From assembly GCF_000379965.1 (NCBI RefSeq), contig NZ_KB904327.1, forward strand, positions 496,001-560,000: 64,000 nt of DNA, given 5' to 3'. Source of the DNA: Hoylesella nanceiensis DSM 19126 = JCM 15639. GTDB taxonomy: Bacteria > Bacteroidota > Bacteroidia > Bacteroidales > Bacteroidaceae. Position numbers and translations under genes: made by a program. Under the pieces are notes generated by a model. The model was not told where the DNA came from and did not search any database. It saw only the letters and a list, made by a program, of their open reading frames with translations. Shown here in pieces: positions 2,708 through 52,324 of this stretch. Within the stretch, counting starts at the first letter, position 1; every line of letters begins with the position of its first letter.

Positions 2708-2817
2708 ACAGCAAAACGAAATAGCATTGACTTTGAATTGTAATAACAATGCTTTTAGAATACAAACACAGTGAGTTTATAATATAAAAAGATGCTTTTT
2801 AAAGGATAGAGGCAAGC
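2708..2817. repeat. 22-bp-period degenerate repeat array A
   Basis: Five units start at 2708, 2730, 2752, 2774 and 2796. The first three end in CATTG, CAATG and CAGTG and carry an A-rich centre; units 4-5 are weak. It lies between the HD gene stop and the rprY terminator (convergent genes). The general consensus, CTWTTACATTG followed by CAAAAGCATTG, is shared with seven other arrays in the window. Confidence 0.7.
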
Positions 2818-2866
2818 CTTCAAGGAAGAAACAGAATACATATATTTTCTAATATATCTACAAAAG

Positions 2867-2900
2867 AAAAGAGCTTGATATGTGTTTATCAAGCTCTTTT
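2867..2900 (-). terminator. Terminator of rprXY
   Basis: A perfect 14-bp stem (AAAAGAGCTTGATA and its complement) with a 6-nt loop. The stem ends in four T in either direction. Confidence 0.85.
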
Positions 2901-2906
2901 ACTTTA

Positions 2907-3605
2907 TTAATCTTGTTCGGGAGTAATAAGTTTGTATCCCTTACCATGAATATTAATGATTTCTATTTGATCATCATCTTTCAAATGCTTACGCAATTTG
3001 GTAATATAAACGTCCATTGAACGAGCATTGAAATAATTATCGTCAATCCAAATAGTCTTCAAAGCAAAGTCACGTTGCAAAATTTCGTTTGCATGTGAGC
3101 AAAGTAAAGCCAACAATTCATTTTCTTTTGTAGTAAGCTTTGTTTGCTTATCGCCAATAGTTAGCAATTGCTTCTGTGTATCGAAAGTAAATCTACCGAT
3201 GTTATACAATGTACTTTCTTTGTTTTTCTTGCCATGTACACGACGTAGAATTGCTTCAATACGGAATACCAACTCTTCCATAGAGAATGGCTTGGTGATA
3301 TAATCGTCTGCACCAATCTTGAAACCTTCTAAGATATCCTCCTTTAATGTCTTTGCAGTAAGGAAAATAATAGGCATTTCTGCATTCGATTGTCTTATCT
3401 CTTGTGCAAGAGTGAAACCATCTTTTTTAGGCATCATCACGTCAAGCACGCAAATATCAAACTTACTTTTCAAAAATTCTTTATATCCAGCTTCACCATC
3501 TGGGCAAAGAGTTGCTGCGTAACCTTTTGCTTGTAGATATTCTCTAAGCAACATTCCTAGGTTTTCATCGTCTTCACACAATAGGATTTTTAATTTGTCT
3601 TCCAT
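2907..3605 (-). CDS. rprY: OmpR/PhoB-family response regulator RprY
   Basis: 232 aa with a receiver domain (about 1-120) and a winged-helix DNA-binding domain (about 135-230). The acidic pocket is Glu11-Asp12-Asp13, the phospho-acceptor is Asp55 in VLDVMMPKKDG, and the conserved Lys105 is in ITKPF. The C-terminus carries the usual MDVYITKLRKHL recognition region. It directly follows rprX with 5 bp between them, as in Bacteroides and Porphyromonas, where RprY binds stress and metabolic promoters. The name rests on similarity to RprY as I remember it and on the pairing. Confidence 0.87.
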   Translation of the reverse strand: MEDKLKILLCEDDENLGMLLREYLQAKGYAATLCPDGEAGYKEFLKSKFDICVLDVMMPKKDGFTLAQEIRQSNAEMPIIFLTAKTLKEDILEGFKIGADDYITKPFSMEELVFRIEAILRRVHGKKNKESTLYNIGRFTFDTQKQLLTIGDKQTKLTTKENELLALLCSHANEILQRDFALKTIWIDDNYFNARSMDVYITKLRKHLKDDDQIEIINIHGKGYKLITPEQD

Positions 3606-3610
3606 AATTT

Positions 3611-5170
3611 TTAATTTTTAATTATTGGTAATTTAATTGTAAATGTCGTTCCCTTTCCATATTCACTCTCAACAGTTATTTCACCACCATTGATGTCTAC
3701 AATCTGCTTAACGTATGCAAGTCCTAATCCAAAGCCTTTCACGTCGTGCACATTGCCTGTGTGAACACGGTAGAATTTATCAAATATTTTTTTAAGATTA
3801 TCTCTCTTTATTCCTAAACCAGTATCTCTTATTGAGAGCATAATGGCATCTTCTTCATTCCAAGTCTTCAAGAAAACATCGAGCGGAGTATCGGGTTTAC
3901 GATATTTAACCGCATTATCTAGAAGATTGAAAATTACGTTTTGGAAGTGCATCTCATCAACATATACCGTTGAATCAACCGCCTCTACCTCTGTATATAT
4001 CTTTCCTCCTGTATGCTCTACACGCAGAGTAAAGGTGTTTGCAATATTATAAACCATCTCATTTAAATCCAGTTCTTTAGATTTATAGATAGCTCTATTC
4101 TTGTCAAACATAGACATCTGAAGTACTTTCTCAACCAAAAAGCGTAGGCGTTTCGACTCATCATTAATCACAGTCCCTATGTGTTTAAGCATAAGTGGAC
4201 TTTTACCTATCGACTCATCATTAAGCATCTGAGCTGCGAGTGAAATGCTCGAGATGGGCGTTTTCAACTCGTGAGTCATATTATTGATAAAGTCATTCTT
4301 CAGTTCAGTGTACTTTTTCTGTCTGAATATGATAACTATCGTAAATATAAATGTGATTAATAGCACCACAGTAAATATCAACGATGGAATTACAAACCAC
4401 ACAGAAGAGTAAATATACTTATCCATTTCAGGGAAATGAATACGCACAATACCTATCTTTGCCTGTGGATCATTCCTAAACAGAACTTGAGAATAGCTAT
4501 ATTCTTCACCTGCATCACTATAATCGGGGCATCGATATACTTCTCGTCCATCTTGAGTTGAAACAATGAAATGATAAGGAATGTCTATTCCATAATTCAT
4601 TAATTCAGCCTTAAGGTCTTGATCTAGAAGCTTAAAGTTAATTCTTTCCTTCAACGGTTTCTCTGAAGCTGAATAAAGTATTGAGTAAACAACCTCGTCA
4701 AGTAAGCCTTTCTGATAAATGTATCTACTCTTTACTAATTCCTGAAACGACCTTGATGCCTCTGTTATAGAATTCTTATCTCTACCCAAAATCATTCCCT
4801 TTGGAATTTTTGAGGGGCGTATTGTTATCGTCTTTAACTCGAATGAAGAATAAACTGTTCCGTCTTTGCCTGTAACCGAGTATTGATGAGAATGCTGAAT
4901 GGCTTTTCCTCCTTTCTTAGATACCGCATTTATCGAATCTCGAATAAAGGCTTTACGCTCTGTTTCGTTTATATCTTTTTCAAGATAACGCAACGTTTCA
5001 TTGAGTTCTAAATTCTTTGAGGCTTGATATAAAGCACGATTCACCGATTCGTTGAATTGCTCTTTCTTCATTTGCACCATTCGTTGCATGTATTGCAACT
5101 GCAAAAAGAGTAGTGCAAGGAAAGAAAATCCCATGATAACTGCTATTATTCCTATCGTCCTCTTTTTCAT
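3611..5170 (-). CDS. rprX: Sensor histidine kinase RprX
   Basis: 519 aa. There is a TM segment at about 5-25, a periplasmic sensor region to about 255, a second TM at about 256-282, and then the kinase core. The phospho-acceptor is His300 in NMTHELKTPISS. The N box is FNLLDNAVKY, the G1 box IRDTGLGIK, the F box KIFDKFYR and the G2 box GFGLGLAYV, all intact. It would phosphorylate RprY, encoded 5 bp downstream. The TATATTTG box ends only 5 bp before the ATG. The signal peptide-like first helix makes this start secure. Confidence 0.9.
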   Translation of the reverse strand: MKKRTIGIIAVIMGFSFLALLFLQLQYMQRMVQMKKEQFNESVNRALYQASKNLELNETLRYLEKDINETERKAFIRDSINAVSKKGGKAIQHSHQYSVTGKDGTVYSSFELKTITIRPSKIPKGMILGRDKNSITEASRSFQELVKSRYIYQKGLLDEVVYSILYSASEKPLKERINFKLLDQDLKAELMNYGIDIPYHFIVSTQDGREVYRCPDYSDAGEEYSYSQVLFRNDPQAKIGIVRIHFPEMDKYIYSSVWFVIPSLIFTVVLLITFIFTIVIIFRQKKYTELKNDFINNMTHELKTPISSISLAAQMLNDESIGKSPLMLKHIGTVINDESKRLRFLVEKVLQMSMFDKNRAIYKSKELDLNEMVYNIANTFTLRVEHTGGKIYTEVEAVDSTVYVDEMHFQNVIFNLLDNAVKYRKPDTPLDVFLKTWNEEDAIMLSIRDTGLGIKRDNLKKIFDKFYRVHTGNVHDVKGFGLGLAYVKQIVDINGGEITVESEYGKGTTFTIKLPIIKN

Positions 5171-5175
5171 ATTGG

Positions 5176-5207
5176 CAAATATACGACAAAGAGTAACACT
5201 TTAACAA
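5176..5207 (-). promoter_or_regulatory. rprXY promoter
   Basis: On the minus strand TTG (5207-5205), 21 bp, then TATATTTG (5183-5176). The box ends 5 bp before the rprX ATG at 5170. Confidence 0.6.
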
Positions 5208-5236
5208 CATAACGTTAATAAAATGCTTTATATTTT

Positions 5237-5302
5237 ATTATGTTAACAAAATACATTGATTTAATTTCAAATATACAATTATCTATCTTATAAAAGCTCT
5301 AT
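5237..5302. repeat. Possible ninth 22-bp-period array (weak)
   Basis: Three 22-bp blocks start at 5237, 5259 and 5281. Block 1 ends AAAATACATTG, block 2 ATATACAATT and block 3 has AAAAGC. They keep the register of the other arrays but are very degenerate. They lie between the rprX promoter and the pabA stop. Confidence 0.35.
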
Positions 5303-5875
5303 TTAAACAAATAAAGAAATCCAATTAGACATCATCTTCTCTCCTTGAGGCGTCAAAATACTCTCTGGATGAAATTGTATTCCACATATATTATAATAGG
5401 TATGCTGCAATCCCATTATAATATGATCATCGGTTTGGGCAGTAATTTTTAAAGAATTAGGAAGACTTTCGCTATCAACAGCCCAACTATGATAACGCCC
5501 TACGGATATTTTTGAGGGCATTTCACGAAAAAGAACATTGCTATTATCTACCGAAAGCAGTGAAGTTATACCATGAAAGACATCATTTAAATTGTATAAT
5601 TGTGCTCCAAAATATTGCGCAATAGCTTGATGCCCCAAACAAATACCAAGAATTGACTTCGTTTGAGCATACTTTTCTAATAAAGAAGTAATATTGGGAT
5701 AATCTAAAGGCAAACCAGGGCCAGGACCAATAATGAGTTTTTGATAATTATCTAAAAGATTTATATCTAAAGAAAGACTATCAAATACATCTACTCCACT
5801 CCCCGTTTGTTCAATTAAATATTTGATGTTATAAGTAAACGAGTCGTGATTATCTATTAGAGCAATGTTTTTCAT
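5303..5875 (-). CDS. pabA: Glutamine amidotransferase subunit of aminodeoxychorismate/anthranilate synthase
   Basis: A 190-aa class I glutamine amidotransferase of the TrpG/PabA type. Visible are the oxyanion region GPGPGLP (50-56), the nucleophile Cys79 in GICLGHQ, and His169/Glu171 in FHPES. The N-terminal LIDNHDSFTYN block is typical. It supplies ammonia to a chorismate-binding partner, either for folate (PabB) or tryptophan (TrpE); no such partner is in the window. It lies 15 bp downstream of a TrpF-like gene, which would hint at tryptophan, but that protein looks catalytically changed. The choice of pabA over trpG is therefore tentative. Confidence 0.75.
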   Translation of the reverse strand: MKNIALIDNHDSFTYNIKYLIEQTGSGVDVFDSLSLDINLLDNYQKLIIGPGPGLPLDYPNITSLLEKYAQTKSILGICLGHQAIAQYFGAQLYNLNDVFHGITSLLSVDNSNVLFREMPSKISVGRYHSWAVDSESLPNSLKITAQTDDHIIMGLQHTYYNICGIQFHPESILTPQGEKMMSNWISLFV

Positions 5876-5890
5876 TCTTTCAACAGCTGC

Positions 5891-6586
5891 CTATCTTGCT
5901 AACACCTGCTGTAAAGATTGTAGCTTTTCAATATCTTTTAAACCTTCTTCTGTTTCAATTTCAGCATCTACATTCAATCCCAAGAAAGCTTCATTCTTTA
6001 TTTCTTTTAAGGCATTTACTACGCTTTCGTCAGCAGCCCCACCAACAAAGAAAGGAAGAGAAGATGCAAAGTTATTCAAAGCTTCAACTGTTTTTGAAAT
6101 CTCTTGAGATACTAATAAAGTGGGATTGAGTTTAAAAAATATCATATCGGCATGACCTCCAAAAGGCAAAGCCTTATCGAGTTCATCGTAAGAATTTACC
6201 TCTATTGTTTTTATAACGTCTAAAGATGGAGCAATATCACCTATAACTGTAGTTTTTAAATTGTCGATCATCACTGTATTTTCATCACCATTTAGTTGAA
6301 CTCCATTAAGTTTAAAGTTATAGATACGTGTGATTATGTTTTGAGGCATATCGTCTTTAAATACTCCAAAGACCTTTACATTGGCAAAAGATAGAATGTC
6401 TTTATTTTTCTTTATGGCATCAACTTGAAGAGAACTGTAGTCTGGCTGTATTCCACTATTAGAAGAATACATCTTTACAAAACGTGGATTTCCTTTTTCA
6501 AAGTTTAATCCAATCATTGCAACACCTTGTTCTATCACGGCACGAATATTCTCTTTTTCGTACACTCCGCACACCTTTAATATCAT
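5891..6586 (-). CDS. Divergent TrpF-like (phosphoribosylanthranilate isomerase family) protein
   Basis: A 231-aa TIM-barrel protein. It keeps the TrpF start: KVCG with Cys6 in the place of the general base, and Arg35 in NPRFV where TrpF has the substrate-binding Arg. It also keeps the VFGVFKDD and VQLNGDE strands (TrpF has VQLHGDE) and a GLNVDAEIETEEGLKD tail. Missing are the catalytic Asp of the LLDT strand (here FFKL) and the GGSGxxFDW phosphate loop. The isomerase reaction is thus doubtful. It may be a relic or have a new ligand. It sits 15 bp upstream of pabA and has its own promoter. Confidence 0.65.
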   Translation of the reverse strand: MILKVCGVYEKENIRAVIEQGVAMIGLNFEKGNPRFVKMYSSNSGIQPDYSSLQVDAIKKNKDILSFANVKVFGVFKDDMPQNIITRIYNFKLNGVQLNGDENTVMIDNLKTTVIGDIAPSLDVIKTIEVNSYDELDKALPFGGHADMIFFKLNPTLLVSQEISKTVEALNNFASSLPFFVGGAADESVVNALKEIKNEAFLGLNVDAEIETEEGLKDIEKLQSLQQVLAR

Positions 6587-6648
6587 AAAACGTTATTTTG
6601 TCCTTTGAAATTTACTTACTTTTATCTCTATCAATAATGATATTAATG

Positions 6649-6656
6649 CAAAGATA
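6649..6656 (-). promoter_or_regulatory. -7 box of the trpF-like/pabA unit
   Basis: CAAAGATA reads TATCTTTG toward the gene, 62 bp before the ATG at 6586. No convincing -33 is seen. Confidence 0.5.
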
Positions 6657-7513
6657 TAGTGTTTATTCTAAAATAAAGAGGATTAATGCAAGATTTTTAA
6701 GGATGGAGATTATAACCAAAGGGATAATTTACACTTTATTTATACTTGAAAACATTATCATATTTGTATAACCAAGATTACTAAAACTAGATCAAAGAAT
6801 ACATCTATTTTATATATAAAATCATCACATAACACAAATTCAACAAGCATAATAACCTTTATATACTCAGCTAATTCATCTCCAACTTCATCAAACCTTT
6901 TTCCTTCTTCTATCCTACTCTATACTCATCATAAAACAAGTGGCAAATAGTTATAGATGAATATGATTTCCTCCTCTCAATAAAAGCATAACTTTTACAT
7001 CACAATAACATTGCTTTAACCCTCTAATATCAATGCTTTTAAAGGTCAAAAGCAGTACTTTTAAATTTGAAATAAAATGGCATGGAAATAATATTTAATA
7101 AGAGTAGAAAATGAAAGTGGTAAATAAAGAATTACTTCGACAATAAAACATACTTTTCTCAATAATGAAAAAGATAAGTTGAAGTATTCTTTTACAATCA
7201 AGAATGAACCTAAACAGAAAATAACTGATAAGAAACTACGTTATAAAACTCTAAAACAGAATACATATAGATGATGATTCCACTCATAAAGTACGCAACT
7301 CCAACAGCCTATTTAGACATCATTATAAAGTAAGAAAAATCATATTTCTATTATAAATAGTAAACGTAACCTCCCCCCTCTTTTAATCATTTTATGAATT
7401 ACAAAATATAGTTTAAGTATATATTTATATTAAATCAACTTATACATTGGATTTAAATAAGTTACAAAAGTACAGCAACAGTCCATTAAAGAGAGTATTA
7501 AAACAACGAAAAT
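6657..7513. other. Gene-free stretch with repeat array and orphan -7 box
   Basis: I see no credible gene between the trpF-like promoter and the patatin terminator; only very short frames are present. The region holds repeat array B (6992-7079) and, just past the patatin terminator, CAAAAGTA at 7465-7472, which reads TACTTTTG leftward. That box could start an untranslated RNA toward 6660. A C/T-rich run occupies 6870-6930. Confidence 0.5.
6992..7079. repeat. 22-bp-period degenerate repeat array B
   Basis: Four units start at 6992, 7014, 7036 and 7058. All begin CTTTTA or CTTTAA. Units end CATTG, CAATG, CAGTA and AAATG. Spacing is exactly 22 bp with no slippage. Confidence 0.8.
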
Positions 7514-7541
7514 GGGACCCAAAGGAAACCTTGAGTCCCAC
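7514..7541 (-). terminator. Terminator of the patatin gene
   Basis: Stem TGGGAC/GTCCCA with a partly paired interior. On the minus strand it is followed by TTTTCG and then a T-rich stretch. Confidence 0.7.
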
Positions 7542-7571
7542 TATTATATCTTAAAGAACAAAGAATTATTA

Positions 7572-8423
7572 TTATCTTTTATCCCAATATTCTTGACAAA
7601 ACAATTCTCCTTGCTCAAAACCTTCTTCGTATAAATCTTCAAGTTTTGTAACATCACGTTCTATTCTATCTACTTCTAAAGGATGAACAGGACGAATACA
7701 TACTATTTTTCCTTCATTTTCGAGTTGCTCTATCAAATCTAATTGCGCATTATATACGGCAACTCTCCTACTTAAAGCCACTCTAAGACGAGGATAATTC
7801 TTATAGATAAAACGAGGAATTTTATAGTCTTTCGATGTATTTCGATAACCTCTATTTCGTGTAAGCACCACAACATTGGTAGGATGTCCCTTTTCTATTG
7901 ATCTAAGAACAGGAATACTATCAACAATTCCACCATCAAGCATAGGAATTCCGTCGACTGTTACAATCTTACTTACATAGGGTAAACTCGACGAAGCCTT
8001 TACAATATCAAGTGTTCTTTGCTTGTCTTGCTTATCAACAAGATACATTGCCTCCCCCGTTAAGCAGTTAGTTGTAACCATTTCAAACGTTGCGGGATTT
8101 TTAAAATAGGTGTCAAAATCATAAGGAAGATAATCGTTTGGCAAATCATCGTATAACAATTTCTGATCAAAAATACATCCTTGAGAAAATAAATGTCTAA
8201 GTCCAATATAGTCATAACGTGCTAAAAAATCAATATTTGTCATTCTAGCACGACGATATTGCTTACTCATATACGACATTCCGTTGCCTGCTCCTGCCGA
8301 AACTGCAACGACATAATCAAAGTAAAGATTATGTTTCATGAATGCATCTAATACACCACTGGTGAAAACTCCACGCATCCCACCTCCCTCTAGTACAAGT
8401 CCTACGTCTGATGTGATATTCAT
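7572..8423 (-). CDS. Patatin-like phospholipase
   Basis: 283 aa, the size and order of the YjjU-type patatin family. The glycine-rich oxyanion loop is LEGGGMRGVFTSGVLDAF (11-28), the nucleophile is Ser42 in AVSAGAGNG, and the dyad Asp163 is in DGGIVDS. The nucleophile elbow reads AxSxG, not the usual GxSxG. No signal peptide is visible, so it should act in the cytoplasm on lipid esters; the substrate is unknown. It is single-cistron and divergent from the Xaa-Pro aminopeptidase gene. Confidence 0.87.
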   Translation of the reverse strand: MNITSDVGLVLEGGGMRGVFTSGVLDAFMKHNLYFDYVVAVSAGAGNGMSYMSKQYRRARMTNIDFLARYDYIGLRHLFSQGCIFDQKLLYDDLPNDYLPYDFDTYFKNPATFEMVTTNCLTGEAMYLVDKQDKQRTLDIVKASSSLPYVSKIVTVDGIPMLDGGIVDSIPVLRSIEKGHPTNVVVLTRNRGYRNTSKDYKIPRFIYKNYPRLRVALSRRVAVYNAQLDLIEQLENEGKIVCIRPVHPLEVDRIERDVTKLEDLYEEGFEQGELFCQEYWDKR

Positions 8424-8445
8424 AAGAATACAATTAAAGTTGTTA

Positions 8446-8453
8446 CAAAGTTA
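8446..8453 (-). promoter_or_regulatory. -7 box of the patatin gene
   Basis: CAAAGTTA reads TAACTTTG leftward, 22 bp before the patatin ATG. It is divergent from the identical box TAACTTTG at 8475. Confidence 0.6.
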
Positions 8454-8474
8454 CATAAATTGAACTATTTTTCG

Positions 8475-8482
8475 TAACTTTG
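8475..8482 (+). promoter_or_regulatory. -7 box of the Xaa-Pro aminopeptidase gene
   Basis: TAACTTTG, 27 bp before the ATG at 8510. The TTG at 8480, which opens the longest reading frame, is part of this box, so it is not used as a start. Confidence 0.65.
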
Positions 8483-8509
8483 CGATATATATTAAATAAA
8501 TCTTTTAAT

Positions 8510-12467: not shown

Positions 12468-12542
12468 ATTTTCACAGATAAATCAACCACAATAGCATTA
12501 ATATAATACCTTGCAACATCTTTACGAGCAAGTAAAAACTAT

Positions 12543-12631
12543 CATATTGCATGCTAATTGCTATCTTTTTGCATTTTAATTGCAATGCTATTAGAGACCA
12601 ATAATAATGCATTTTGTGTAAGAAAGTCAAA
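12543..12631. repeat. 22-bp-period degenerate repeat array H
   Basis: Units start at 12543, 12565 (23 bp long), 12588 and 12610. They end GCTAT, GCAATG, TAATG and GTCAAA. The array sits between a terminator and the sialate O-acetylesterase gene. The ATG at 12558 that opens the longest frame lies inside it. Confidence 0.6.
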
Positions 12632-12749
12632 TTCTTTTATATCGCTTTATCATTATATACAACAATGTGTTGCCATTATTACCACGAATAAAAAAATAGA
12701 TTATCATAGAAAAACAAACAAAACAATTTATTCTTTAATCCAAAACACT

Positions 12750-14753
12750 ATGAAAAAACAAATTTTCTTTATGCTCCTTCTAATGAGTTGCATAATCACA
12801 AAAGCCCAAGTAAGGTTACAACCTCTATTTACTGACAATATGGTTTTACAGCAACAATCTCATGTTCCCATTTGGGGAGAAGACAAAGCAGGGAAAGAAA
12901 TCACTATAATCACGTCTTGGGATAATCACAAATATAAAACAATTACAAGATCTAACGGAAGTTGGAAGATAACAGTAACAACCCCCAAAGCAGGTGGTCC
13001 TTATGAAATTACGTTCAATGATGGTAATATCGTAAAGCTAAAAAATGTTCTTATTGGTGAAGTTTGGCTATGTTCAGGACAATCAAACATGGAAATGCCT
13101 ATTGTTGGCTGGGGAAATAACTATTTTAAAGAAGAACACAAAGATGCTGATAATCATCCAAACATACGACTCCTACAAGTTAATTTAGAAACAAGTTCAC
13201 ATCCTCAAACTCATTTTACAGCACGAAATGATGGATGGATGGTATGCAATTATGAGAACTTAGCAAACTTTTCTGCTACTGCTTATTTCTTCGGAAGAGA
13301 CCTTGAACAGCATCTTAATGTACCAATTGGACTTATACAAACTTGCTGGGGGGGTACTACAATTGAAGCTTGGACAGGAAAAGAAGCACTAAAATTAGAC
13401 CCTGACTTTATAAAAGACCTCAAACTATTATCTGATGTTCCAAGTTCAAAAGAAAATGCACTACAGGAATACAAAAGAAAGAAGCAAAAGTGGCAACAAG
13501 AAATTAATGAGAAAGATACAGGAATGAAGGGAAATAAGGCTATATGGGCTTCTCCCAAGATAAGCACTTACTCATGGAAGACAATACAAATTCCTTCTCC
13601 CTTTTCTCAACAAGGCCTAGATACTTTCGATGGTTTAATATGGATTAGACGTATAGTTGATATTCCATCATCTATGACAGGAAAAGATCTTACATTAAAA
13701 TTAGGACCAATTGATGATAATGATATAACCTACTTTAATGGTATTGAAATCGGAAAAACAGAAGGATGGGATAAAGAGCGTATCTATAAAATCCCTTCAA
13801 ATTTAGTAAAGCCTGGCAAGAATGTAATTGCTATACGTATTTTTGACAGAGAGAGAGATGGTGGATTATATGGAGATACTAATAAAATAAAGATCGAAAA
13901 AGTACAATCTAACCCTTTAGATTCAGTTATACAAGAAATAAATATCAGTGGGGAATGGCTTTATAAGATTAGTAAGCATATACAGGATATTCCTAATGAA
14001 CCTATAAACCCAAATGATAATCCATGTTTTCCCACAGTACTCTACAATGCAATGATAAATCCACTTATACCTTATACGATAAAAGGAGTTATTTGGTATC
14101 AAGGAGAAGCCAATGCTAATAGAGCTTATCAATATCGACGCCTTCTGCCTTTAATGATAAACAACTGGCGCTCATCTTGGGGATACAAGTTCCCTTTCTA
14201 TATTGTTCAACTTGCAAATTTCATGGAACATCATAGCGAACCAACTGAGTCAACATGGGCAGAACTACGTGAAGCACAACAAATGGCAACAGGATTAGAT
14301 AATACAGGAATATCATGTACTATTGATATTGGTATGGAAAAAGATATACATCCAAGTAACAAACAGGACGTAGGACATCGGTTAGCTCTTATTGCAAGAG
14401 CAAAAAGCTATAACGAAAATATAGAATTTAGTGGCCCTACTTATAAAACACATGAAATAAAGGGAGACTCTATTCGTATTTATTTTGATCATACTAAAGG
14501 AGGATTAAAAACAAAAGACAATAACTCCCTCACAGGATTTGCTATAGCTGGCCCAGATAAAAGATGGTATTGGGCACATGCAACAATTGAAGGAAATAGT
14601 GTAATCGTAAAAAGTGATAATGTAAAAATTCCTATTGCAGTACGTTATGCATGGGCAGATAATCCAATCTGCAACTTATATAACGGCGAGAATCTTCCTG
14701 CTTTTCCCTTTAGAACCGACAATTGGAATGGAATAACTTATAATAAGAAATAA
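12750..14753 (+). CDS. Sialate O-acetylesterase
   Basis: 667 aa, exported by a signal peptide (MKKQIFFMLLLMSCIITKAQ). The SGNH-type esterase blocks are present: GQSNM with nucleophile Ser112 after GEVWLCS, VIWYQGEAN, and DIHPSNKQDVGHRLA with the catalytic Asp/His. Between the two catalytic halves lies a beta-sandwich insertion (about residues 280-390) typical of this family. It removes O-acetyl groups from sialic acids before sialidase cleavage or catabolism. The frame is open from 12558, but that extension crosses a repeat array and would bury the signal peptide, so 12750 is used. Confidence 0.9.
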   Translation: MKKQIFFMLLLMSCIITKAQVRLQPLFTDNMVLQQQSHVPIWGEDKAGKEITIITSWDNHKYKTITRSNGSWKITVTTPKAGGPYEITFNDGNIVKLKNVLIGEVWLCSGQSNMEMPIVGWGNNYFKEEHKDADNHPNIRLLQVNLETSSHPQTHFTARNDGWMVCNYENLANFSATAYFFGRDLEQHLNVPIGLIQTCWGGTTIEAWTGKEALKLDPDFIKDLKLLSDVPSSKENALQEYKRKKQKWQQEINEKDTGMKGNKAIWASPKISTYSWKTIQIPSPFSQQGLDTFDGLIWIRRIVDIPSSMTGKDLTLKLGPIDDNDITYFNGIEIGKTEGWDKERIYKIPSNLVKPGKNVIAIRIFDRERDGGLYGDTNKIKIEKVQSNPLDSVIQEINISGEWLYKISKHIQDIPNEPINPNDNPCFPTVLYNAMINPLIPYTIKGVIWYQGEANANRAYQYRRLLPLMINNWRSSWGYKFPFYIVQLANFMEHHSEPTESTWAELREAQQMATGLDNTGISCTIDIGMEKDIHPSNKQDVGHRLALIARAKSYNENIEFSGPTYKTHEIKGDSIRIYFDHTKGGLKTKDNNSLTGFAIAGPDKRWYWAHATIEGNSVIVKSDNVKIPIAVRYAWADNPICNLYNGENLPAFPFRTDNWNGITYNKK

Positions 14754-21568: not shown

Positions 21569-21656
21569 TCATCACACCACAAAAGCTATGCTGTTATGAT
21601 ACAAAAGGATAGTTATTATCCTATAAAAGCTATACTTTTGCAAGACAAAAGAAGAG
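21569..21656. repeat. 22-bp-period degenerate repeat array C
   Basis: Four units start at 21569, 21591, 21613 and 21635. All contain AAAAG at the same place. It lies between two terminators of convergent genes. The rest of 21442-21755 shows no gene. Confidence 0.75.
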
Positions 21657-21755
21657 AGTTTACTTGGAAAGGAATAACTAAAAGACTTTTATTGCTTTCC
21701 TTTTATAAATAAACAGAAATAAGTTTTACCCATAAAGACAATAAAATAAAAATTA

Positions 21756-27756: not shown

Positions 27757-27958
27757 ATTCTTTCTTATTTTATTGGTTATTACACTCATTAGACGAAAGG
27801 GGATAAAAAAAAGTTGCATTAATTGATATTTTATTTCAAGAACAACCTCATTTTTTCTCGTATCTCTACCTATATTGTTGTATAAAAATCAGCTTTAAAC
27901 TGCGATTAATAACGGATTTCAAGAGAAATTGAAGAGATAAAAAAAAATAAAATCATCA

Positions 27959-28046
27959 CTTTTATAAAATAATTGCATTGATATTGCTTGCTAAACACAT
28001 TGCTTTTACATTGCAATAGCATATCTTTTACATCCATACAATAAGC
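27959..28046. repeat. 22-bp-period degenerate repeat array D
   Basis: Four units start at 27959, 27981, 28003 and 28025. The first two end GCATTG and ACATTG and the third has CTTTTACATTGC, close to consensus. It sits between the MFS terminator and the DUF2807 gene. The remaining part of 27757-28147 shows no gene and no clear promoter. Confidence 0.8.
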
Positions 28047-39590: not shown

Positions 39591-39616
39591 TGCCTACTCA
39601 CAATTATGAGTAGGCA
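39591..39616 (-). terminator. Terminator of the kinase-RapZ gene
   Basis: Perfect 10-bp stem TGCCTACTCA/TGAGTAGGCA with a 6-nt loop, followed leftward by CTTTTTCTTTC. It lies 150 bp past the stop, so array E would be in the 3' UTR. Confidence 0.8.
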
Positions 39617-39646
39617 TCCCTATAATGATTGATTCTAATTACATTA

Positions 39647-39734
39647 ATATTACATTGCAAAAACATTGACTTTGTTTCTTAAAAGGATTACTATTACGCT
39701 GCAAAAGCGATCCTTTTACAAGCAAAATATGTTC
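39647..39734. repeat. 22-bp-period degenerate repeat array E
   Basis: Four units start at 39647, 39669, 39691 and 39713. Unit 1 is near consensus (ATATTACATTG then CAAAAACATTG). Unit 3 begins CTATTAC and has CAAAAGC. The array lies between the kinase-RapZ stop and its terminator. Confidence 0.85.
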
Positions 39735-39765: not shown

Positions 39766-41262
39766 CTACTTAGCCTCGTAATGTTCTTCAATATGCTGTT
39801 CTCTGTGAATTAACTGCACTTCACAACCAAACTTATTACTGATATATTCGGCTACATGTTGAGCAGAATAAACGCTTCTATGTTGCCCCCCTGTACAACC
39901 AAAAGAAAACATCAAGTTGGTAAATCCACGTTCGATATATCTAGCAACATGCATATCTACCAGTCCATACACATGACTTAAGAATTCTGTTATTTCTCCA
40001 TCATCTTCCAAGAACTGAATAACTTCAGCATCTCTACCTGTTAATTTCTTATATTGAGCATATCTTCCTGGGTTATGAACGGCTCTACAATCGAACATAT
40101 ATCCTCCCCCATTACCTGATAAATCTTTAGGTATTCCTCGATGATAAGAAAAACTATATACTAGAACTTTTAGCTTTTTATTATTCGATACCTCTTGAGT
40201 TTCGGTTGTTTTGCATGAAGAAGCTGTTGCATCTGCTTTCGATTTATTTTCGAATTGTGGAAGGCTTACTAGTTTTTCTAAAACCTCTTTTAAATAAGTA
40301 TAAGGCTTAAAGAGATCTTCATGCTGAAGTAATGCCTTTAAATTATTAATAGCAAAAGGTATACTTCTCACGAAATAGCTCTTTTCTTCGATATAGCCTC
40401 TAAATCCATAGGCACCCAATACTTGCAAGGTTCTGAACAAAACAAATAAGTTTAAGTTGCTTTTAAACTCTTCGAAAGAACCTATTGCTACCCACTTTTT
40501 AAGTTCTTGATAATAAACCTCAATCAAGTGAGCACGCAATTCATCGTTATATTGAGCAGAAGCCTGCCATAAGAACGAGGCAAGGTCGTAATAGAAAGGT
40601 CCTTTTCTACCTCCTTGAAAGTCGATAAAACAAGGTTCTGAGCCTTGGGTTAGCATCACATTACGAGCTTGAAAATCACGATACATAAAAGAATTACCCG
40701 TAAGTTGAAAGAGATGATCAGCAAGAGAATAGAATTCATGCTGTAATTTAAACTCATTAAAATCGATGTTTGTGATTTTCAAAAAGCAATATTTGAAATA
40801 GTTTAAGTCAAACATTACATTCTCTTTATCGAACTCTGGCTGAGGATAACAACGATTCCAATCGAGATTTTCAGCTCCCTTAACTTGAATAAGCGGTAGT
40901 TGTTTGATGGTATTTTCTAGTAATGCAATTTCAGATTCGTTATAGTTTCCTCCATTGTTTCTTCCTTCTTTTAAGGCATCGAACAAAGAAACAGAGCCTA
41001 AATCGGTTTGCAAATAACACAATCTATCGCTGCTTACAGCAAGAACTGAAGGCATTGGCAAATGAAGTGCATTAAAATGAGAAGCCAAATATATAAAAGA
41101 TTCGTTCTCTTCAACACTTGTTCCTTCTACAGCAATAAGCGTTTCGCCCTGCTTATCATAGCATCTGTAATAGCAACGGTTGCTTCCTGCTCCTGCAAGT
41201 TGTTCTATTTTCTCGGCATGAAAGCCCTTATATTCAAAATATAACTGCGCAATCTTTTCCAT
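39766..41262 (-). CDS. Fusion of AmgK-like sugar kinase with RapZ C-terminal domain
   Basis: 498 aa. Residues 1-330 are an aminoglycoside-phosphotransferase-type kinase of the AmgK kind, with the catalytic loop MYRDFQARNVML and metal motif FIDFQGGRKGP. After a Ser/Thr-rich linker (about 335-365) comes the RapZ C-terminal domain: KVLVYSFSYHRGIP, GGGYMFDCRAVHNPG and FSFGCTGGQHRSV. AmgK phosphorylates MurNAc or GlcNAc at the anomeric carbon. The RapZ C-terminal domain senses glucosamine-6-phosphate in enteric bacteria. The N-terminal P-loop domain of RapZ is absent. ATG 41262 is preferred to GTG 41268. Confidence 0.87.
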   Translation of the reverse strand: MEKIAQLYFEYKGFHAEKIEQLAGAGSNRCYYRCYDKQGETLIAVEGTSVEENESFIYLASHFNALHLPMPSVLAVSSDRLCYLQTDLGSVSLFDALKEGRNNGGNYNESEIALLENTIKQLPLIQVKGAENLDWNRCYPQPEFDKENVMFDLNYFKYCFLKITNIDFNEFKLQHEFYSLADHLFQLTGNSFMYRDFQARNVMLTQGSEPCFIDFQGGRKGPFYYDLASFLWQASAQYNDELRAHLIEVYYQELKKWVAIGSFEEFKSNLNLFVLFRTLQVLGAYGFRGYIEEKSYFVRSIPFAINNLKALLQHEDLFKPYTYLKEVLEKLVSLPQFENKSKADATASSCKTTETQEVSNNKKLKVLVYSFSYHRGIPKDLSGNGGGYMFDCRAVHNPGRYAQYKKLTGRDAEVIQFLEDDGEITEFLSHVYGLVDMHVARYIERGFTNLMFSFGCTGGQHRSVYSAQHVAEYISNKFGCEVQLIHREQHIEEHYEAK

Positions 41263-41283
41263 AATCACAATTGTATAGCCATT

Positions 41284-41530: not shown

Positions 41531-41604
41531 CGGTGCGTACGGGACTCGAACCCGTGACCCCATGCGTGACAGGCATGTATTCTAACCAACTGAACTAACG
41601 CACC
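41531..41604 (-). tRNA. tRNA-Asp (GUC), second of pair
   Basis: 74 nt cloverleaf. Acceptor GGTGCGT pairs with ACGCACC, the discriminator is G, the anticodon loop is CTGTCAC with GUC, and the T arm is ACGGGTTCGAGTCCCGT. CCA is not encoded. It is identical to the copy at 41641-41714. Confidence 0.96.
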
Positions 41605-41640
41605 TTTTAAAGGTACTCAATAAACAATTAAACTCTTATG

Positions 41641-41714
41641 CGGTGCGTACGGGACTCGAACCCGTGACCCCATGCGTGACAGGCATGTATTCTAACCAAC
41701 TGAACTAACGCACC
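41641..41714 (-). tRNA. tRNA-Asp (GUC), first of pair
   Basis: Identical in all 74 positions to the next copy, from which it is separated by 36 bp. Transcribed leftward from the promoter at 41744-41774. Confidence 0.96.
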
Positions 41715-43983: not shown

Positions 43984-44601
43984 TTATTTATCAAATGGTG
44001 TTCTATTTAAAATTGAGCGTCCTAAGGTCACTTCATCGGTGTACTCTAACTCATTACCCACAGATATTCCTCGTGCAATAACGGTTAGCAAGACTCCATA
44101 ATTGGCCAAACGCTTTGATATATAGAAGTTGGTTGTGTCGCCTTCCATTGTACTTCCAAGGGCAAAAATGATCTCTTTCACTCCACCTTGCGCCACTCTT
44201 TCTACCAAAGAGTCTATCTCAATGTCAGCAGGTCCAATGCCGTCCATAGGAGAAATGACACCTCCGAGAACATGATATAAGCCATTATACTGCTGAGTAT
44301 TCTCTATTGCCATCACATCTTGAATGTTTTCTACAACGCAAACAACGCTTGAATCACGACGAGCATCAGCACAAATAGGACATAATTCTGTATCTGAAAC
44401 ATTATGACAACAGCTGCAATGTTTTATTTCTTGCTTCATTTTAAGTATTGAAGACGAAAAAGTTTCTACCTCGCTTTCATTCTGTCGCAATAAATGAAGT
44501 GCCAAACGCAATGCTGTTTTGCGTCCTACTCCTGGGAGTTTAGACAACTCTCCTACTGCCTTTTCTAATAATAACGAGGGATATTGCTGATTTATTGCCA
44601 T
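43984..44601 (-). CDS. recR: Recombination protein RecR
   Basis: 205 aa, full length. HhH region ([20 protein letters not shown]), the C4 zinc finger with [16 protein letters not shown], and the Toprim domain ([15 protein letters not shown] ... [19 protein letters not shown]). Works with RecO/RecF to load RecA at gaps. It begins an operon with three envelope-type genes; repeat array F lies just upstream. Confidence 0.96.
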
Positions 44602-44613
44602 TCTATATGATTG

Positions 44614-44723
44614 ATATTACTTTGTAAAAACATTGATATTACGATGTAAAAGCATTGCTATTGACCTATAAAAGGACAACTATTAGAAGGGAAAAGGATA
44701 CCTTTTAAACTCCAAATAATTTG
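44614..44723. repeat. 22-bp-period degenerate repeat array F
   Basis: Five units start at 44614, 44636, 44658, 44680 and 44702, with perfect 22-bp register. Units 1 and 2 differ at only three positions (both start ATATTAC and end CATTG). It lies between the DUF4293 terminator and recR, starting 12 bp before the recR ATG. Confidence 0.88.
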
Positions 44724-45623: not shown

Positions 45624-45649
45624 AATGATAATTCTTTATTTCTACTTTA

Positions 45650-46486: not shown

Positions 46487-46507
46487 ATAACCAATTCTTT
46501 GAGTATG

Positions 46508-46538: not shown

Positions 46539-46600
46539 CTATTTAGTATTATTTTTGTGATTTATAAGGTATCTTACTGCGATAAAATAACTTTTTTTCC

Positions 46601-46608
46601 TACTTTTG
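46601..46608 (+). promoter_or_regulatory. -7 box of uvrB, near-leaderless
   Basis: TACTTTTG ends 5 bp before the ATG at 46614. A second box, TATTTTTG at 46550-46557, could start a transcript with a leader of about 50 nt. Neither has a clear -33. Confidence 0.55.
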
Positions 46609-46613
46609 CATAT

Positions 46614-48650: not shown

Positions 48651-48687
48651 ATATAAAACATAATAGTATTATAATGCTTTCTTTTAC

Positions 48688-48695
48688 TAATTTTG
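48688..48695 (+). promoter_or_regulatory. -7 box of the DUF4468-porin operon
   Basis: TAATTTTG, 26 bp before ATG 48722. It overlaps the start of the longest frame, which begins at 48674. Confidence 0.55.
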
Positions 48696-48721
48696 CATTA
48701 CTAATTGAATTAAAAGAACTT

Positions 48722-49411
48722 ATGAAGAAGATATTCACTCTTATTTTAGCTTTCTTTCCTTTGTGTAATTTGATGGCACAAAGCGAATGGGAGCTTCCAA
48801 ACTCTAGCGTTCCAACAGAGAAAACCACCAAAACTAAAACAAAGAAAGAAAACACTTCTATCGCAAAAGAAGACAACTCGAAAGTTGTTGAGATAAAAGA
48901 AGAAGACAAGCCATACTTAGAAGGTGCGGTACCTGAAGTGGAAGGAAAGATTGTTTTCAGTAGAACTATCAACATTCCCAATAAGAATGCGAGCGAAATA
49001 TACGATAAAACCTATCAGTATCTTGAGCAATTTACAAAGTCAAACACTTCACTTCCAGGTAGTAGAATTGTGATTGTAAATAAGAAACAGCACATTATTG
49101 CAGCCACAATTAATGAATGGTTAGTGTTTTCTAACAACTTTTTTTCTATCGATAGAGCTCAATTCTTCTACACACTCATTGCAACTTGCAAAGACAATGA
49201 ATTGCTCATAAACGTTGAAAGAATTAAATATAAATACGAAATAGGACGCCCTTCTGAACTCAAAACAACTGCAGAAGAACTTATCTCTGATAAAGTTGCA
49301 CTTAGCAAAGATAAGACTAAGGTGAAGAAAGCTGAGAAAAAGTTCAGATATAAAACTATTGATAGAGTAAAAGAGATTATGGATAACATTCAATCGAATG
49401 TGACTTTATAA
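48722..49411 (+). CDS. DUF4468 domain secreted protein
   Basis: 229 aa. Signal peptide MKKIFTLILAFFPLCNLMAQ, a Lys/Thr/Glu-rich stretch (about 32-65), then a region like DUF4468 (VFSRTINIPNKNASEIYDKTYQYLEQF ... FYTLIATCKDNELLINVERIKYKYEIG), an alpha/beta TBP-like fold. Function unknown. First gene of an operon with a small membrane protein and a porin; the frame from 48674 overlaps the promoter. Confidence 0.78.
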   Translation: MKKIFTLILAFFPLCNLMAQSEWELPNSSVPTEKTTKTKTKKENTSIAKEDNSKVVEIKEEDKPYLEGAVPEVEGKIVFSRTINIPNKNASEIYDKTYQYLEQFTKSNTSLPGSRIVIVNKKQHIIAATINEWLVFSNNFFSIDRAQFFYTLIATCKDNELLINVERIKYKYEIGRPSELKTTAEELISDKVALSKDKTKVKKAEKKFRYKTIDRVKEIMDNIQSNVTL

Positions 49412-49420
49412 TAAAAAGAT

Positions 49421-49648
49421 ATGATGACTACAGAACAAAACACTTCAATTCCCACAAGAAAAAGAGGCAATCAGAATAATGAAAAGCCCTTTATGAAGAT
49501 TAGAACCATATTAAATATCATCTTTATGGTGGGTGCTATTATTGGTGTTTTCTTATATTTTTATAGTTCACATTATGTTGGAACTATTGTAATTCTGGTA
49601 TCAATGGTATTTAAGTTCATTGAAACCATCCTACGAATGATTCGTTAA
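49421..49648 (+). CDS. Small two-helix membrane protein, 75 aa
   Basis: Polar N-terminus (about 1-24) and two TM helices (about 27-46 and 52-70). Not recognised as a known family. The stop overlaps the porin start (TAATG), so it is translationally coupled, and it lies 9 bp after the DUF4468 gene. Probably an inner-membrane protein. Confidence 0.7.
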   Translation: MMTTEQNTSIPTRKRGNQNNEKPFMKIRTILNIIFMVGAIIGVFLYFYSSHYVGTIVILVSMVFKFIETILRMIR

Positions 49649-51945
49649 TGAAAAAGACTTTATTATTTTTTGCTTCGTTGTTTGTTGGCTTTTATGCACA
49701 AGCACAAAACACTGAATACAATCAAATAGATGAAAATGGAGTTATTTCACGTCGTAACACGATGGGAAATAACAGCTCCGACTCTCTACATTCAAACAAA
49801 GAGATTCCTATTGGCATTAAAGCATGGACCGTAGATGAAAAGTTTGGTGACAGAACTGTTGCCAAAGTAGATACCATGCAATATATGTTTATGAACTCTA
49901 TATTCACTTCTGGACTAGAAGGACAATATAACACAACGGGAAATCTTGGTTCGCCACGTATTAATAGAATTTTTATTAATCGTCAAGACCATAGTCAATT
50001 TATATTTACAGACCCTTATAGTTATTTCATTACACCTGTAAATCAGTTCCATTTCACCAATACTCTTTCACCATTTACCATACTTAATTATAACACTGGC
50101 GGTGGAAGTTCGAATGGAGAAGACCACTTTAAGGCTATATTTGGCGTGAATGCAGGTCGCAAATTGGGTGTAGGATTTAAATTCGATTATATTTATGGAC
50201 GTGGATTCTACAACAATCAAAGCTCAGCTCACTTCAACTATACGATGTATGGCTCATATCTTGGTGAGCAATACCAAGCCCATCTATTGCTTTCTACTAA
50301 TCATCAAAAGAACGCAGAGAATGGAGGTATAACCAATGATGGCTATATTACCACTCCTGAAGCATACAACGAGGATTATTCTAGTAATGAGATCCCTACC
50401 GTTTTAAATAAGAACTGGAATAGAAATAACAACTTACACGCTTTTCTTACACATCGTTATAGTGTGGGCTTTACTAGAAAAGTAAAGATGACTGAAGAGG
50501 AAATCAAAGCGAAGAAGTTTGCCCTTAGTTCTAAAGAACAAAACAACACTAAACCAACAGACAAACGTTTGTCGGCAAAAGAGCGTGAGAAAAACAAGTC
50601 TATTGCACTTGGACGCCCCGAAGATGCTAAGGTTGTGGGAAGCGAGCCCGTTGATTCTATCTCTAAAACAAATAATAGAATTCAGGTTAAAGACAACGCA
50701 ACAAGAGATAGTTTGTTGGCAATCAGCAAAAAGAACGAGACTGACTCCCTTTGGTTTAAAAGCGAATATGTTCCTGTAACCAGTTTCATTCACACTGCAA
50801 AGTTTGATACTTACGACAGAATATACCAAGCTTATTACACCTCAAGCAATTATTACAAAAATCAATATTATAATGCTGGTCGTTTACTTAACGACTCTAT
50901 ATACGACCAAACCAAGCATTTCCGTTTACAAAACACCTTTGCAATATCTCTATTAGAAGGCTTTAATAAATGGGCTAAAGCTGGGGTTAAAGCATTTATT
51001 ACGAGTGATTTCAGACATTTTGAGCTACCTTTAATAGATGGTTCACTAGGAACTTACAACGAACACAATTTAAGTGTAGGTGGAGAAATTAGTAAAACAC
51101 TTGGTAAAACGCTACATTACAAGGCATTATTAGAGACTTGGGTTACTGGAAAAGATGCAGGACAGCTTAAATTAGACGTTAATACTGATGTCAATTTCAA
51201 GCTCTTTGGCGACACTGTTACATTGGCTGCAAGTGGCTTCTTCCATCGAATCAACCCCTCATTCTATTTCCGTCACTATCATTCTCGTCACTTCTGGTGG
51301 GATAATAATAGTATGGATAAGATGATACATACACGTCTTGAGGGTCTATTTAGCTATAAAAAGACCAATACTGCACTACGAGTTGCTGTTGACAACATTA
51401 AGAATTATACCTATTTTGCACAGAGTTATAGTATAGACAATCAGTATAACAGATTGAACGTGGACGTTACCACCAATCAATACCAAAGTCCTATAAGTCT
51501 ACTGACTCTCGAATTGATTCAGAAAATCAAGTTTGGTATCTTCAGATGGGAGAACACTATTACCTATCAAAAGTCATCAAATAATGATATTTTGGGCGTT
51601 CCCGACTTAAACATATATAGCAACCTTTACATGAAGTTTAAGATTGCAAAGGTTCTTTCGTGTGATTTAGGAGCAGATGTACGTTACTTCACCGAGTATT
51701 ATGCTCCCGATTATAGTCCTGCATTAGGCTCTTACACTGTACAAGACGGAACAGACAAGGTTAAAATTGGCAACTACCCATTTGTGAATGTATATGCCAA
51801 CTTCTTGTTAAAGCACACCCGTTTCTTTGTAATGTATAGTCACGTAAACGCTGGTTCGGGTTCTAAACGCTATTTCTTAACACCTCACTACCCCACTAAT
51901 GAGCGCATCTTTAGATTTGGAGTGAGCTGGAATTTCTTTAATTAA
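49648..51945 (+). CDS. Putative porin, outer-membrane beta-barrel
   Basis: 765 aa. Signal peptide MKKTLLFFASLFVGFYAQAQ, then the Bacteroidetes putative porin family: a segment IGIKAWTVDEKFGDRTVAKVDTMQY, long runs of alternating aromatic strands, a charged insert (about 270-350, Lys/Ser/Asp rich) likely to be a loop, and a terminal barrel strand ending RFGVSWNFFN. The transported solute is unknown. Last gene of its operon, with a strong terminator at 52081. Confidence 0.85.
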   Translation: MKKTLLFFASLFVGFYAQAQNTEYNQIDENGVISRRNTMGNNSSDSLHSNKEIPIGIKAWTVDEKFGDRTVAKVDTMQYMFMNSIFTSGLEGQYNTTGNLGSPRINRIFINRQDHSQFIFTDPYSYFITPVNQFHFTNTLSPFTILNYNTGGGSSNGEDHFKAIFGVNAGRKLGVGFKFDYIYGRGFYNNQSSAHFNYTMYGSYLGEQYQAHLLLSTNHQKNAENGGITNDGYITTPEAYNEDYSSNEIPTVLNKNWNRNNNLHAFLTHRYSVGFTRKVKMTEEEIKAKKFALSSKEQNNTKPTDKRLSAKEREKNKSIALGRPEDAKVVGSEPVDSISKTNNRIQVKDNATRDSLLAISKKNETDSLWFKSEYVPVTSFIHTAKFDTYDRIYQAYYTSSNYYKNQYYNAGRLLNDSIYDQTKHFRLQNTFAISLLEGFNKWAKAGVKAFITSDFRHFELPLIDGSLGTYNEHNLSVGGEISKTLGKTLHYKALLETWVTGKDAGQLKLDVNTDVNFKLFGDTVTLAASGFFHRINPSFYFRHYHSRHFWWDNNSMDKMIHTRLEGLFSYKKTNTALRVAVDNIKNYTYFAQSYSIDNQYNRLNVDVTTNQYQSPISLLTLELIQKIKFGIFRWENTITYQKSSNNDILGVPDLNIYSNLYMKFKIAKVLSCDLGADVRYFTEYYAPDYSPALGSYTVQDGTDKVKIGNYPFVNVYANFLLKHTRFFVMYSHVNAGSGSKRYFLTPHYPTNERIFRFGVSWNFFN

Positions 51946-52080
51946 TAGCACCAGCCACTATATAAATTGCAATAGATAAAAGAAAGCTATAATTCTATTA
52001 TGAAAACATTACATCAACAACAGAAATCAAACAAACACAAATTACAACATAAAGCCAGTCTCCATATTATTGAGATAAAC

Positions 52081-52119
52081 AAAAATCCCTCAACAAAATA
52101 GATCTGTTGAGGGATTTTT
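52081..52119 (+). terminator. Terminator of the porin operon
   Basis: Perfect 15-bp stem AAAAATCCCTCAACA with 52105-52119 and a T-run. Confidence 0.9.
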
Positions 52120-52214
52120 TATATATGAACATCATATTACTTATTGACATTTTTAAGCATATTCATTTTCTTTTCATCACATTCTCTTTGCAAAAACATT
52201 TCTATATTTCGTTC

Positions 52215-52324
52215 TTATCATACTACAAATACAATGCTATTATAGGTTATAACTCCATTTTTTGTAGTTCAATAACAATGCTATTATATACTAAAAGCAG
52301 TGTGCTTTGATATAAGTAAGCATA
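52215..52324. repeat. 22-bp-period degenerate repeat array G
   Basis: Five units start at 52215, 52237, 52259, 52281 and 52303. Three end CAATG or CAGTG and two begin CTATTAT. It lies between terminators of convergent genes. The rest of 51946-52493 shows no gene. Confidence 0.75.

Follow-up and report, generated by a model that had tools for sequence, protein, structure and literature searches.

A dispersed intergenic repeat family with A/T tracts phased at 11 bp in Hoylesella nanceiensis and its relatives: a candidate element of DNA architecture

Intergenic DNA in one stretch of the Hoylesella nanceiensis genome raises the question of why short tandem repeats should keep an exact spacing while their sequences drift apart. 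The stretch analyzed here, called the window, spans 64,000 nucleotides (G000:C1:496001-560000, where G000 denotes the 2.65-Mb genome in 12 contigs and C1 the contig that carries the window). An earlier note on this DNA had proposed a family of degenerate 22-bp repeats at eight intergenic sites, and perhaps a ninth. The arrays are found here to recur throughout the genome and in other members of the genus, with spacers that differ among species and a geometry that remains the same. Their role is tentatively explained below as one of DNA architecture.

A fixed register with variable spacers

Chance periodicity was rejected as an explanation, since autocorrelation, a backward-pattern control, and a profile trained outside the window all argue against it. 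Autocorrelation was computed on 27 intergenic segments of the window (7,608 bases, including the upstream part of one open reading frame (ORF) whose start was shifted by hand from 12558 to 12680) and compared with 200 dinucleotide shuffles. The excess expected by the earlier note is present at 22 bp, where the match fraction of 0.342 (z 6.5) exceeds all 200 shuffles, and at 11 bp (z 3.2). Lags of 66, 44, and 33 give z of 5.3, 4.8, and 1.1, respectively, and the short lags 3, 6, 5, and 4 are likewise raised (z 5.0 to 3.4). A cyclic 22-position (22-state) profile was trained only on positions 1-400000 of another contig, C2. Although this profile had not seen the window, its eight top scores there fall on the eight proposed sites (single-piece scores 24.3-56.3), the next best being 18.1; the best score in one 400-kb shuffled sequence is 17.1. 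The possible ninth site, at 5237, is absent from the profile matches. The further copies anticipated elsewhere in the genome are abundant: a consensus pattern with at most three mismatches matches 205 times in G000, and a spacer-relaxed pattern 624 times, with no match to the backward control of either.

The unit is a rotation of CTWTTRCNNNGYAAAAGCAWTG. It contains two approximate dyads 11 bp apart, so that an array consists of repeated TTTT-N7-AAAA-N7, and it is this geometry that is invariant: one A/T tract per 11 bp, TTTT and AAAA in alternation, and 7-bp spacers between them. Six to nine tracts are present in 78 of the 95 G000 arrays counted (range 4-16). The median array length is 89 bp on C1, 105 bp on C2, and 95 bp in Prevotella sp. 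oral taxon 299 F0039, a close relative, with about 90-110 bp being typical. No slip of phase occurs in 41 of 46 arrays on C1, 52 of 65 on C2, and 135 of 163 in F0039, and the arrays that do slip are mostly joined pieces. In the training segment of C2, the profile holds 15.8 bits per unit and, by its own estimate, arrays make up about 12% of intergenic DNA.

The family was surveyed in 90 genomes of the genus, taken to be Prevotella from its named relatives, and in 59 genomes that represent other families within the order. At least 20 matches to the spacer-relaxed pattern were found in 14 of the 90, for instance in G084 (1,109), G017 (799), G039 (529), G012 (401), G078 (234), G053 (174), G065 (152), and G010 (128), while each of the 59 outside genomes gave at most 2. 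The backward control yielded at most 2 matches per genome, except for G058 with 22. In G058, these are 14 + 8 backward matches with no forward match, and this genome may hold another dialect with inverted spacers. When all spacers were left free, at least 10 matches at 11-bp spacing were obtained in 15 of the 90 genus genomes (G084 512, G017 479, G006 210, G039 154, G010 131, G078 120, G000 75, and others), which extends the once-per-11-bp alternation of A/T tracts, described earlier for the window, to other species. At a 12-bp control spacing, none of the 90 gave more than 2 matches. Outside the genus, only G099 (86) and G146 (37) exceeded 10 at 11-bp spacing, and these two gave 58 and 27 at the 12-bp control.

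Spacers are species-specific, with CATTG in G000, CTATG in G012 and G039, CTACG and AGCCG in G084 and G017, a GGTCATC-like form in G010, and a GGGCGTC-like form in P. histicola. In addition, a P. nigrescens record (NZ_CP082843.1; L144:27703-27842, near 157700) contains an array with its own repeated spacer, GGCACTG. No published description of the genus-wide geometry was found in a literature search whose reach left out most subscription papers. The earlier note had not anticipated the unit's dyad symmetry, the dialects, the link to PINSR, or the scarcity of close neighbours (the last two are discussed below).

Relation to PINSR and other known repeats

PINSR was described in the P. intermedia/nigrescens group as an intergenic repeat of 188 bp, specific to that group and thought to be non-coding (Naito et al. 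2015, PMC4755523). According to the available text of that report, 177 and 184 copies occur in two P. intermedia strains, about three quarters of the places being common to both, and the authors report no terminal inverted repeats. In the same text, other clades apparently lack the repeat; this absence rests on PCR with PINSR primers, which could miss diverged relatives. An element of about 190 bp in G084 and G017, whose sequence is conserved beyond the array (16 copies picked by motif), matches two P. nigrescens records. This element of G084, G017, and P. nigrescens is very probably PINSR. The GGCACTG array of P. nigrescens is unlike the PINSR-like copies in the same stretch.

A profile of the PINSR-like element matches 20 places on C2 of G000 and 11 in F0039 at an expectation value (E) of 0.001 or better, and has no match on C1, the contig of the window. 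It also matches all nine loci, eight of P. histicola and one of a Prevotella metagenome bin, with best E of 2e-14 to 3e-8; these loci were fetched by exact tract pattern, so the score is partly due to the geometry they share. In the P. histicola alignment, nine of ten sequences end with GTTACA- or ATTACA-like motifs beyond the array, as in PINSR, and a TGTAA motif and a TTGAT-like motif are also present, the latter partly because it was used for orienting. PINSR is probably one dialect of the phased-array family. Both are dispersed, intergenic, and of high copy number, and the G084-type element shares its 11/22-bp tract geometry with the arrays of the window; in G000, 100 of 111 arrays lie in gaps of at least 100 bp, and 39 of 45 array places are shared with F0039. 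They differ in that window-type arrays are without PINSR ends and spacers, and in that helical phasing, unmentioned in the available text of PMC4755523, is here seen in 15 of 90 genus genomes.

No widely shared end motif is present in the 60-bp flanks of 251 G000 and F0039 arrays (502 flanks), of which 14 contain TTGTAA against 22.8 expected. As to the terminal inverted repeats that characterize miniature inverted-repeat transposable elements (MITEs), short TGTAAA/TTTACA-like ends occur in G084 copies, and no end motif was found in the window's species. BrickBuilt and other tandem-repeat MITEs of P. gingivalis share tandem direct repeats in Bacteroidales DNA; in the available text of PMC4596501 they have 23- or 41-nt units within terminal inverted repeats resembling those of insertion sequences, and no such ends are found around window-type arrays. 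Phased A-tract clusters of E. coli and cyanobacteria have a period of about 11 bp and a length of about 100 bp, and the available parts of two reports (PMC4132750, PMC3940949) propose them as marks of plectoneme loops and nucleoid packing. The arrays resemble them in period, length, and the predicted bending of underwound DNA, with A/T tracts that recur about every 11 bp for about 100 bp. In those reports the clusters are genome-wide enrichments, mainly coding in cyanobacteria, whereas the arrays have a defined alternating unit at orthologous intergenic places.

Constraint, placement, and candidate roles

Overall, F0039 is about 90% identical to G000 (91.7% over 3.4 kb, with aligned blocks mostly at 87-94%). 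Of 187 collinear intergenic gaps, 39 have an array in both genomes, 5 in G000 alone, 1 in F0039 alone, and 142 in neither. Three of the five G000-only arrays score 23-31 with equal gap lengths, one has visibly decayed in F0039, and one has been replaced. Of the 44 gaps that carry an array in G000, 30 entered the substitution count, an array in F0039 not being required; the others were dropped for a length difference above 150 bp, a length above 1,400 bp, or a broken path. The TT/AA cores changed at 5.5% (30/544), compared with 14.9% in flanking A/T runs of at least three, 23.4% in the whole flank, and 28.4% at variable positions, and the bootstrap rate ratio of cores to flanking A/T runs is 0.36 (0.16-0.68). 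The 3,124 array bases hold 9 indels and the 8,803 flank bases 62, a rate ratio of 0.41 (0.12-0.85). The slower change of the cores and the rarer indels point to purifying selection, in a modest sample from a single species pair, and the tract beat seems protected from mutation. The C and G of spacer 2 change at 17-19%. Informative sites beside the tracts (C0, G16, R5, C6) change at 24-29%, near the flank rate, which places the constraint mainly on TT/AA.

Among the 39 shared arrays, 32 have no indel, and the other 7 contain gaps of 1 bp, seven in all, and a single gap of exactly 22 bp. The proposal that spacing is kept while sequence drifts now holds between two species. A minisatellite, or variable number of tandem repeats, was rejected, with a single true whole-unit difference among these arrays. 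Unit gain or loss was also rejected as the source of gap differences of 22, 44, and 66 bp, all five traced cases lying outside arrays. These cases are the C2 gaps after 84734, 239073, 347384, 351187, and 357058, which differ from F0039 by 22, 44, 46, and 66 bp; the 66-bp difference lies in a separate C/T-rich repeat.

Gene gaps and array placement rest on the ORF calls of the present analysis. Apart from the G000 arrays in gaps of at least 100 bp, 3 occupy small gaps and 8 fall within called ORFs, some of which may be spurious. Arrays are somewhat over-represented in convergent gaps (27 vs. about 19 expected) and under-represented in divergent ones (12 vs. about 19). Placement in G084 is similar, its 87 elements comprising 30 convergent, 11 divergent, and 46 tandem, and that in F0039 is less clear. 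Gene starts are avoided: compared with random placement in the same gaps, 10.6% vs. 22.6% of arrays lie within 60 bp of a start in G000 and 13% vs. 23% in F0039, and 1% vs. 11% within 40 bp in G084. The oriented form has no strand preference in tandem gaps (27 same, 19 opposite). Arrays also have few close neighbours. Relative to a null matched for gap length and type, neighbours within 3 kb number 0 vs. 5.7 on C1, 12 vs. 26.2 in F0039, and 4 vs. 12.7 in G084, and those within 2 kb on C2 number 0 vs. 8.3; G000 and F0039 share sites, so their tests are not independent, while G084 is. A regular 10-kb spacing is unsupported, as the coefficient of variation of spacing is below the null on C1 only and within it on C2 and in G084; in F0039 it is above a simpler null. 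Moreover, dyad-paired positions are complementary less often than random expectation in both G000 (93 arrays, combined z -5.67) and F0039 (113 arrays, -5.54), an effect that is not clear for control pairs of the same phases one unit further (z -1.85 and +0.22). Perfect dyads are thus avoided, which makes hairpins unlikely.

Bending was predicted with a wedge model and expressed as the ratio of end-to-end to contour length of 100-bp segments, lower values meaning stronger bending. In G000, 90 array segments have a mean of 0.896, compared with 0.936 for 658 other intergenic segments and 0.943 for shuffled arrays. Arrays of relatives, chosen for pure tracts (84 of G084, 10 of P. histicola, 4 of G010, 3 of G039, and 5 of G012), give 0.735-0.819 against 0.952-0.966 at random genome positions. 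The strongest predicted bend falls at about 11 bp per turn in all five sets tested (0.69-0.78); for G084, the ratio is 0.77 at 10.5 bp per turn, 0.69 at 11, and 0.72 at 11.5. Converted to a planar arc, 0.69 corresponds to about 165 degrees, and 0.877, the value for underwound G000 arrays, to about 100 degrees. Synthetic controls with A5 tracts gave 0.343 at 10.5-bp and 0.929 at 13-bp spacing. As regards the curved DNA suggested earlier, the predicted bending is only moderate in G000 and stronger in the pure-tract arrays of relatives.

Being strand-independent, hairpin-avoiding, register-locked, constrained in their tracts, sparse, and away from gene starts, the arrays fit an element that shapes or anchors supercoiled DNA. 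The best explanation, put forward tentatively, is a dispersed DNA-architecture element, providing bent DNA or a docking place for a nucleoid protein and tuned to underwound DNA, with a putative function. In this model, phased tracts would bend the axis one way, most strongly at an underwound twist of about 11 bp per turn, such as negative supercoiling produces, and the pure-tract arrays of relatives would come near a U-turn in 100 bp. An array might then sit at the tip of a plectoneme or be wrapped by gyrase, HU, or an oligomerizing nucleoid protein that would contact one face every turn. In this way, it would fix where supercoiled loops end, away from promoters, and each lineage would have amplified its own dialect. 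Spacers could drift, since what would matter is the bend or the backbone. A putative protein along one face of the arrays is possible, and bare curvature, gyrase, HU, and a dedicated protein are all candidate agents. A bolder and rather unlikely extension is that a group of Prevotella species shares an architecture code, in which arrays, about one per 6-11 kb, define where supercoiled loops end, a common nucleoid factor or gyrase reads them, and each lineage has re-seeded them in its own spacer dialect, PINSR being one. It has long been asked how the places of supercoiled loops are written into bacterial genomes, and A-tract phasing has so far been mostly a statistical hint. A discrete element with hundreds of copies, an exact helical register, and signs of selection would allow a direct test of loop positioning, and the unexplained PINSR repeat gains a wider family and a structural rule.

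Several observations weigh against an architectural role. Beyond the dependence of the bend on the wedge parameters chosen, the selection of pure-tract arrays, and the moderate bend in G000, the G000 tracts are impure, with TATT or AATA in about one third of units. The highest information lies at the C and G of spacer 2, which looks more like recognition than curvature. G076 has 48 matches to the sequence pattern yet none to the pure-tract geometry, and the two tests pick partly different genomes. No excess at gene ends is seen relative to random placement in the same gaps (within 60 bp, 24% vs. 25% in G000 and 28% vs. 29% in F0039; within 40 bp, 21% vs. 16% in G084). The neighbour deficit is not significant within 3 kb on C2 (14 vs. 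17.4) or within 2 kb in G084 (2 vs. 5.0), and it could arise from recombination loss between near copies or from transposition immunity. Finally, arrays stand at different places at long range, as the comparison of G084 and F0039 reveals.

This last point leads to the main rival, which is unlikely: the arrays would be remains of a mobile or self-spreading repeat, amplified lineage by lineage, inserted away from genes and existing copies, and of little function now. G084 and F0039 have a median protein identity of 59%, and at 14 conserved adjacencies with a gap of at least 200 bp, arrays occur in both genomes at 0, in F0039 only at 4, in G084 only at 1, and in neither at 9. In four of the five one-sided gaps the lengths differ by about 190 bp or more. 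These small numbers point to independent seeding in each lineage. Lineage-specific dialects, the sequence shared well past the array by the 16 motif-picked G084 and G017 copies, and the scarcity of close neighbours, which fits target immunity, also favour such a repeat. On the other hand, tract cores change more slowly and indels are fewer than in the flanks, shared places outnumber one-sided ones by 39 to 6 between G000 and F0039, and, in the available text of PMC4755523, about three quarters of PINSR regions are common to two strains and have no terminal inverted repeats. Mobile amplification probably explains the spread of each dialect and, should the signal of selection fail in more species, may account for the family entirely.

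Repetitive extragenic palindromes (REP) and bacterial interspersed mosaic elements (BIME) occur in hundreds of extragenic copies and are proposed sites of gyrase and nucleoid proteins. The arrays are alike in their hundreds of extragenic copies and differ in having no hairpin signature and no association with the REP-associated tyrosine transposase (RAYT). The latter was rejected as mobilizer: its domain PF01797 (Y1_Tnp) occurs in 4 of the 10 genomes chosen as array-rich and in 5 of the 10 chosen as array-poor. The six array-rich genomes without it are G000, G084, G017, G039, G012, and G078, and its absence there further counts against a mobile repeat.

A cooperative array for one sequence-specific protein is improbable. 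Such a putative reader, a regulator or a filament-forming nucleoid protein, would recognize GYAAWAG(C) in alternating orientation every 11 bp, and the dialects would reflect co-evolution of reader and site. The dyad-related half-sites, the information content per unit, the conserved core sites, and an RC...GY pattern beside the tracts in several dialects are in its favour. Nevertheless, spacer 2 varies between species and even among arrays of one P. nigrescens stretch, mainly short A/T tracts are common to all, and gene starts are avoided.

A role as recombination sites for the shuffling of gene blocks is very unlikely. In comparison with F0039, C1 is heavily reordered, whereas C2 is mostly collinear with longer runs. 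On C1, an array is present at 18 of 30 broken adjacencies against 5 of 72 intact ones, and the 18 exceed the 13.7 expected after matching for gap length and type (p 0.0026); PINSR copies are also located at some P. intermedia rearrangements (available text of PMC4755523). From the F0039 side, the excess (6/25 broken vs. 5/74 intact, p 0.028) is not significant for gaps of at least 250 bp (6/16 vs. 3/20), and only 12 of 74 matching F0039 block ends are near an array. The breakpoint association, coming from one genome only, is suggestive, and no weight is placed on it. The gene order of G000:C1:96001-560000 relative to NC_022111.1 falls into 53 aligned blocks of about 0.5-17 kb. This accession, the 1.77-Mb F0039 replicon, was submitted as an unnamed plasmid and lists a single annotated feature in the version analyzed.

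The weakest alternative, an RNA-level element whose tandem hairpins end transcription or protect mRNA 3' ends in the manner of REP/BIME, draws on the near-palindromic units and the somewhat enriched convergent gaps, but it can hardly be upheld given that dyad partners are complementary below chance in both species, that strand preference and Rfam matches at gathering thresholds are absent at the arrays, and that two of three arrays in 15 kb scanned adjoin a separate long terminator-like hairpin, although the 8 such hairpins there equal the shuffled mean of 8.0.

Arrays and other features of the window

The eight arrays and two hairpins near them are listed in Table 1. The earlier note placed none in a gene; all eight are mainly intergenic, but the array at 44593-44716 covers the first 9 bp of a recR-like ORF, and that at 12532-12614 overlaps the mechanical TTG start of ORF 12558-14753.

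Table 1. Phased arrays and adjacent terminator-like hairpins in the window (TRF, Tandem Repeats Finder).
Feature	Position	Strand	Profile score or scan	Context
22-bp phased array, 3.6 units	2720-2799	.	40	Between convergent ORFs ending at 2700 (+) and 2907 (-)
22-bp phased array, 3.8 units	6981-7063	.	45	Collinear F0039 gap also has an array
22-bp phased array, 3.8 units	12532-12614	.	38	TRF period 22 as well
22-bp phased array, 4.4 units	21574-21670	.	39	
22-bp phased array, 4.0 units	27948-28035	.	42	
Separate terminator-like hairpin	39591-39616		Consensus terminator scan	Near the array at 39631-39727
22-bp phased array, 4.4 units	39631-39727	.	42	Between convergent ORFs
22-bp phased array, 5.6 units	44593-44716	.	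56	TRF period 22; upstream of recR-like ORF
Separate terminator-like hairpin	52081-52119		Terminator scan	Near the array at 52186-52302
22-bp phased array, three joined pieces	52186-52302	.	35 joined; best piece 24.3	Between convergent ORFs

The recR-side array has a counterpart at the collinear place in F0039, in a gap that is 228 bp long in both genomes, with one 1-bp gap inside the array. At gathering thresholds, Rfam matches in the window comprise two tRNAs; these are two tandem tRNA genes of equal score at 41531-41714. An ORF at 39766-41268 fuses an APH-like kinase domain with a RapZ C-terminal domain, and a short 21-bp tandem repeat is located at 60385-60424, within ORF 59617-62463.

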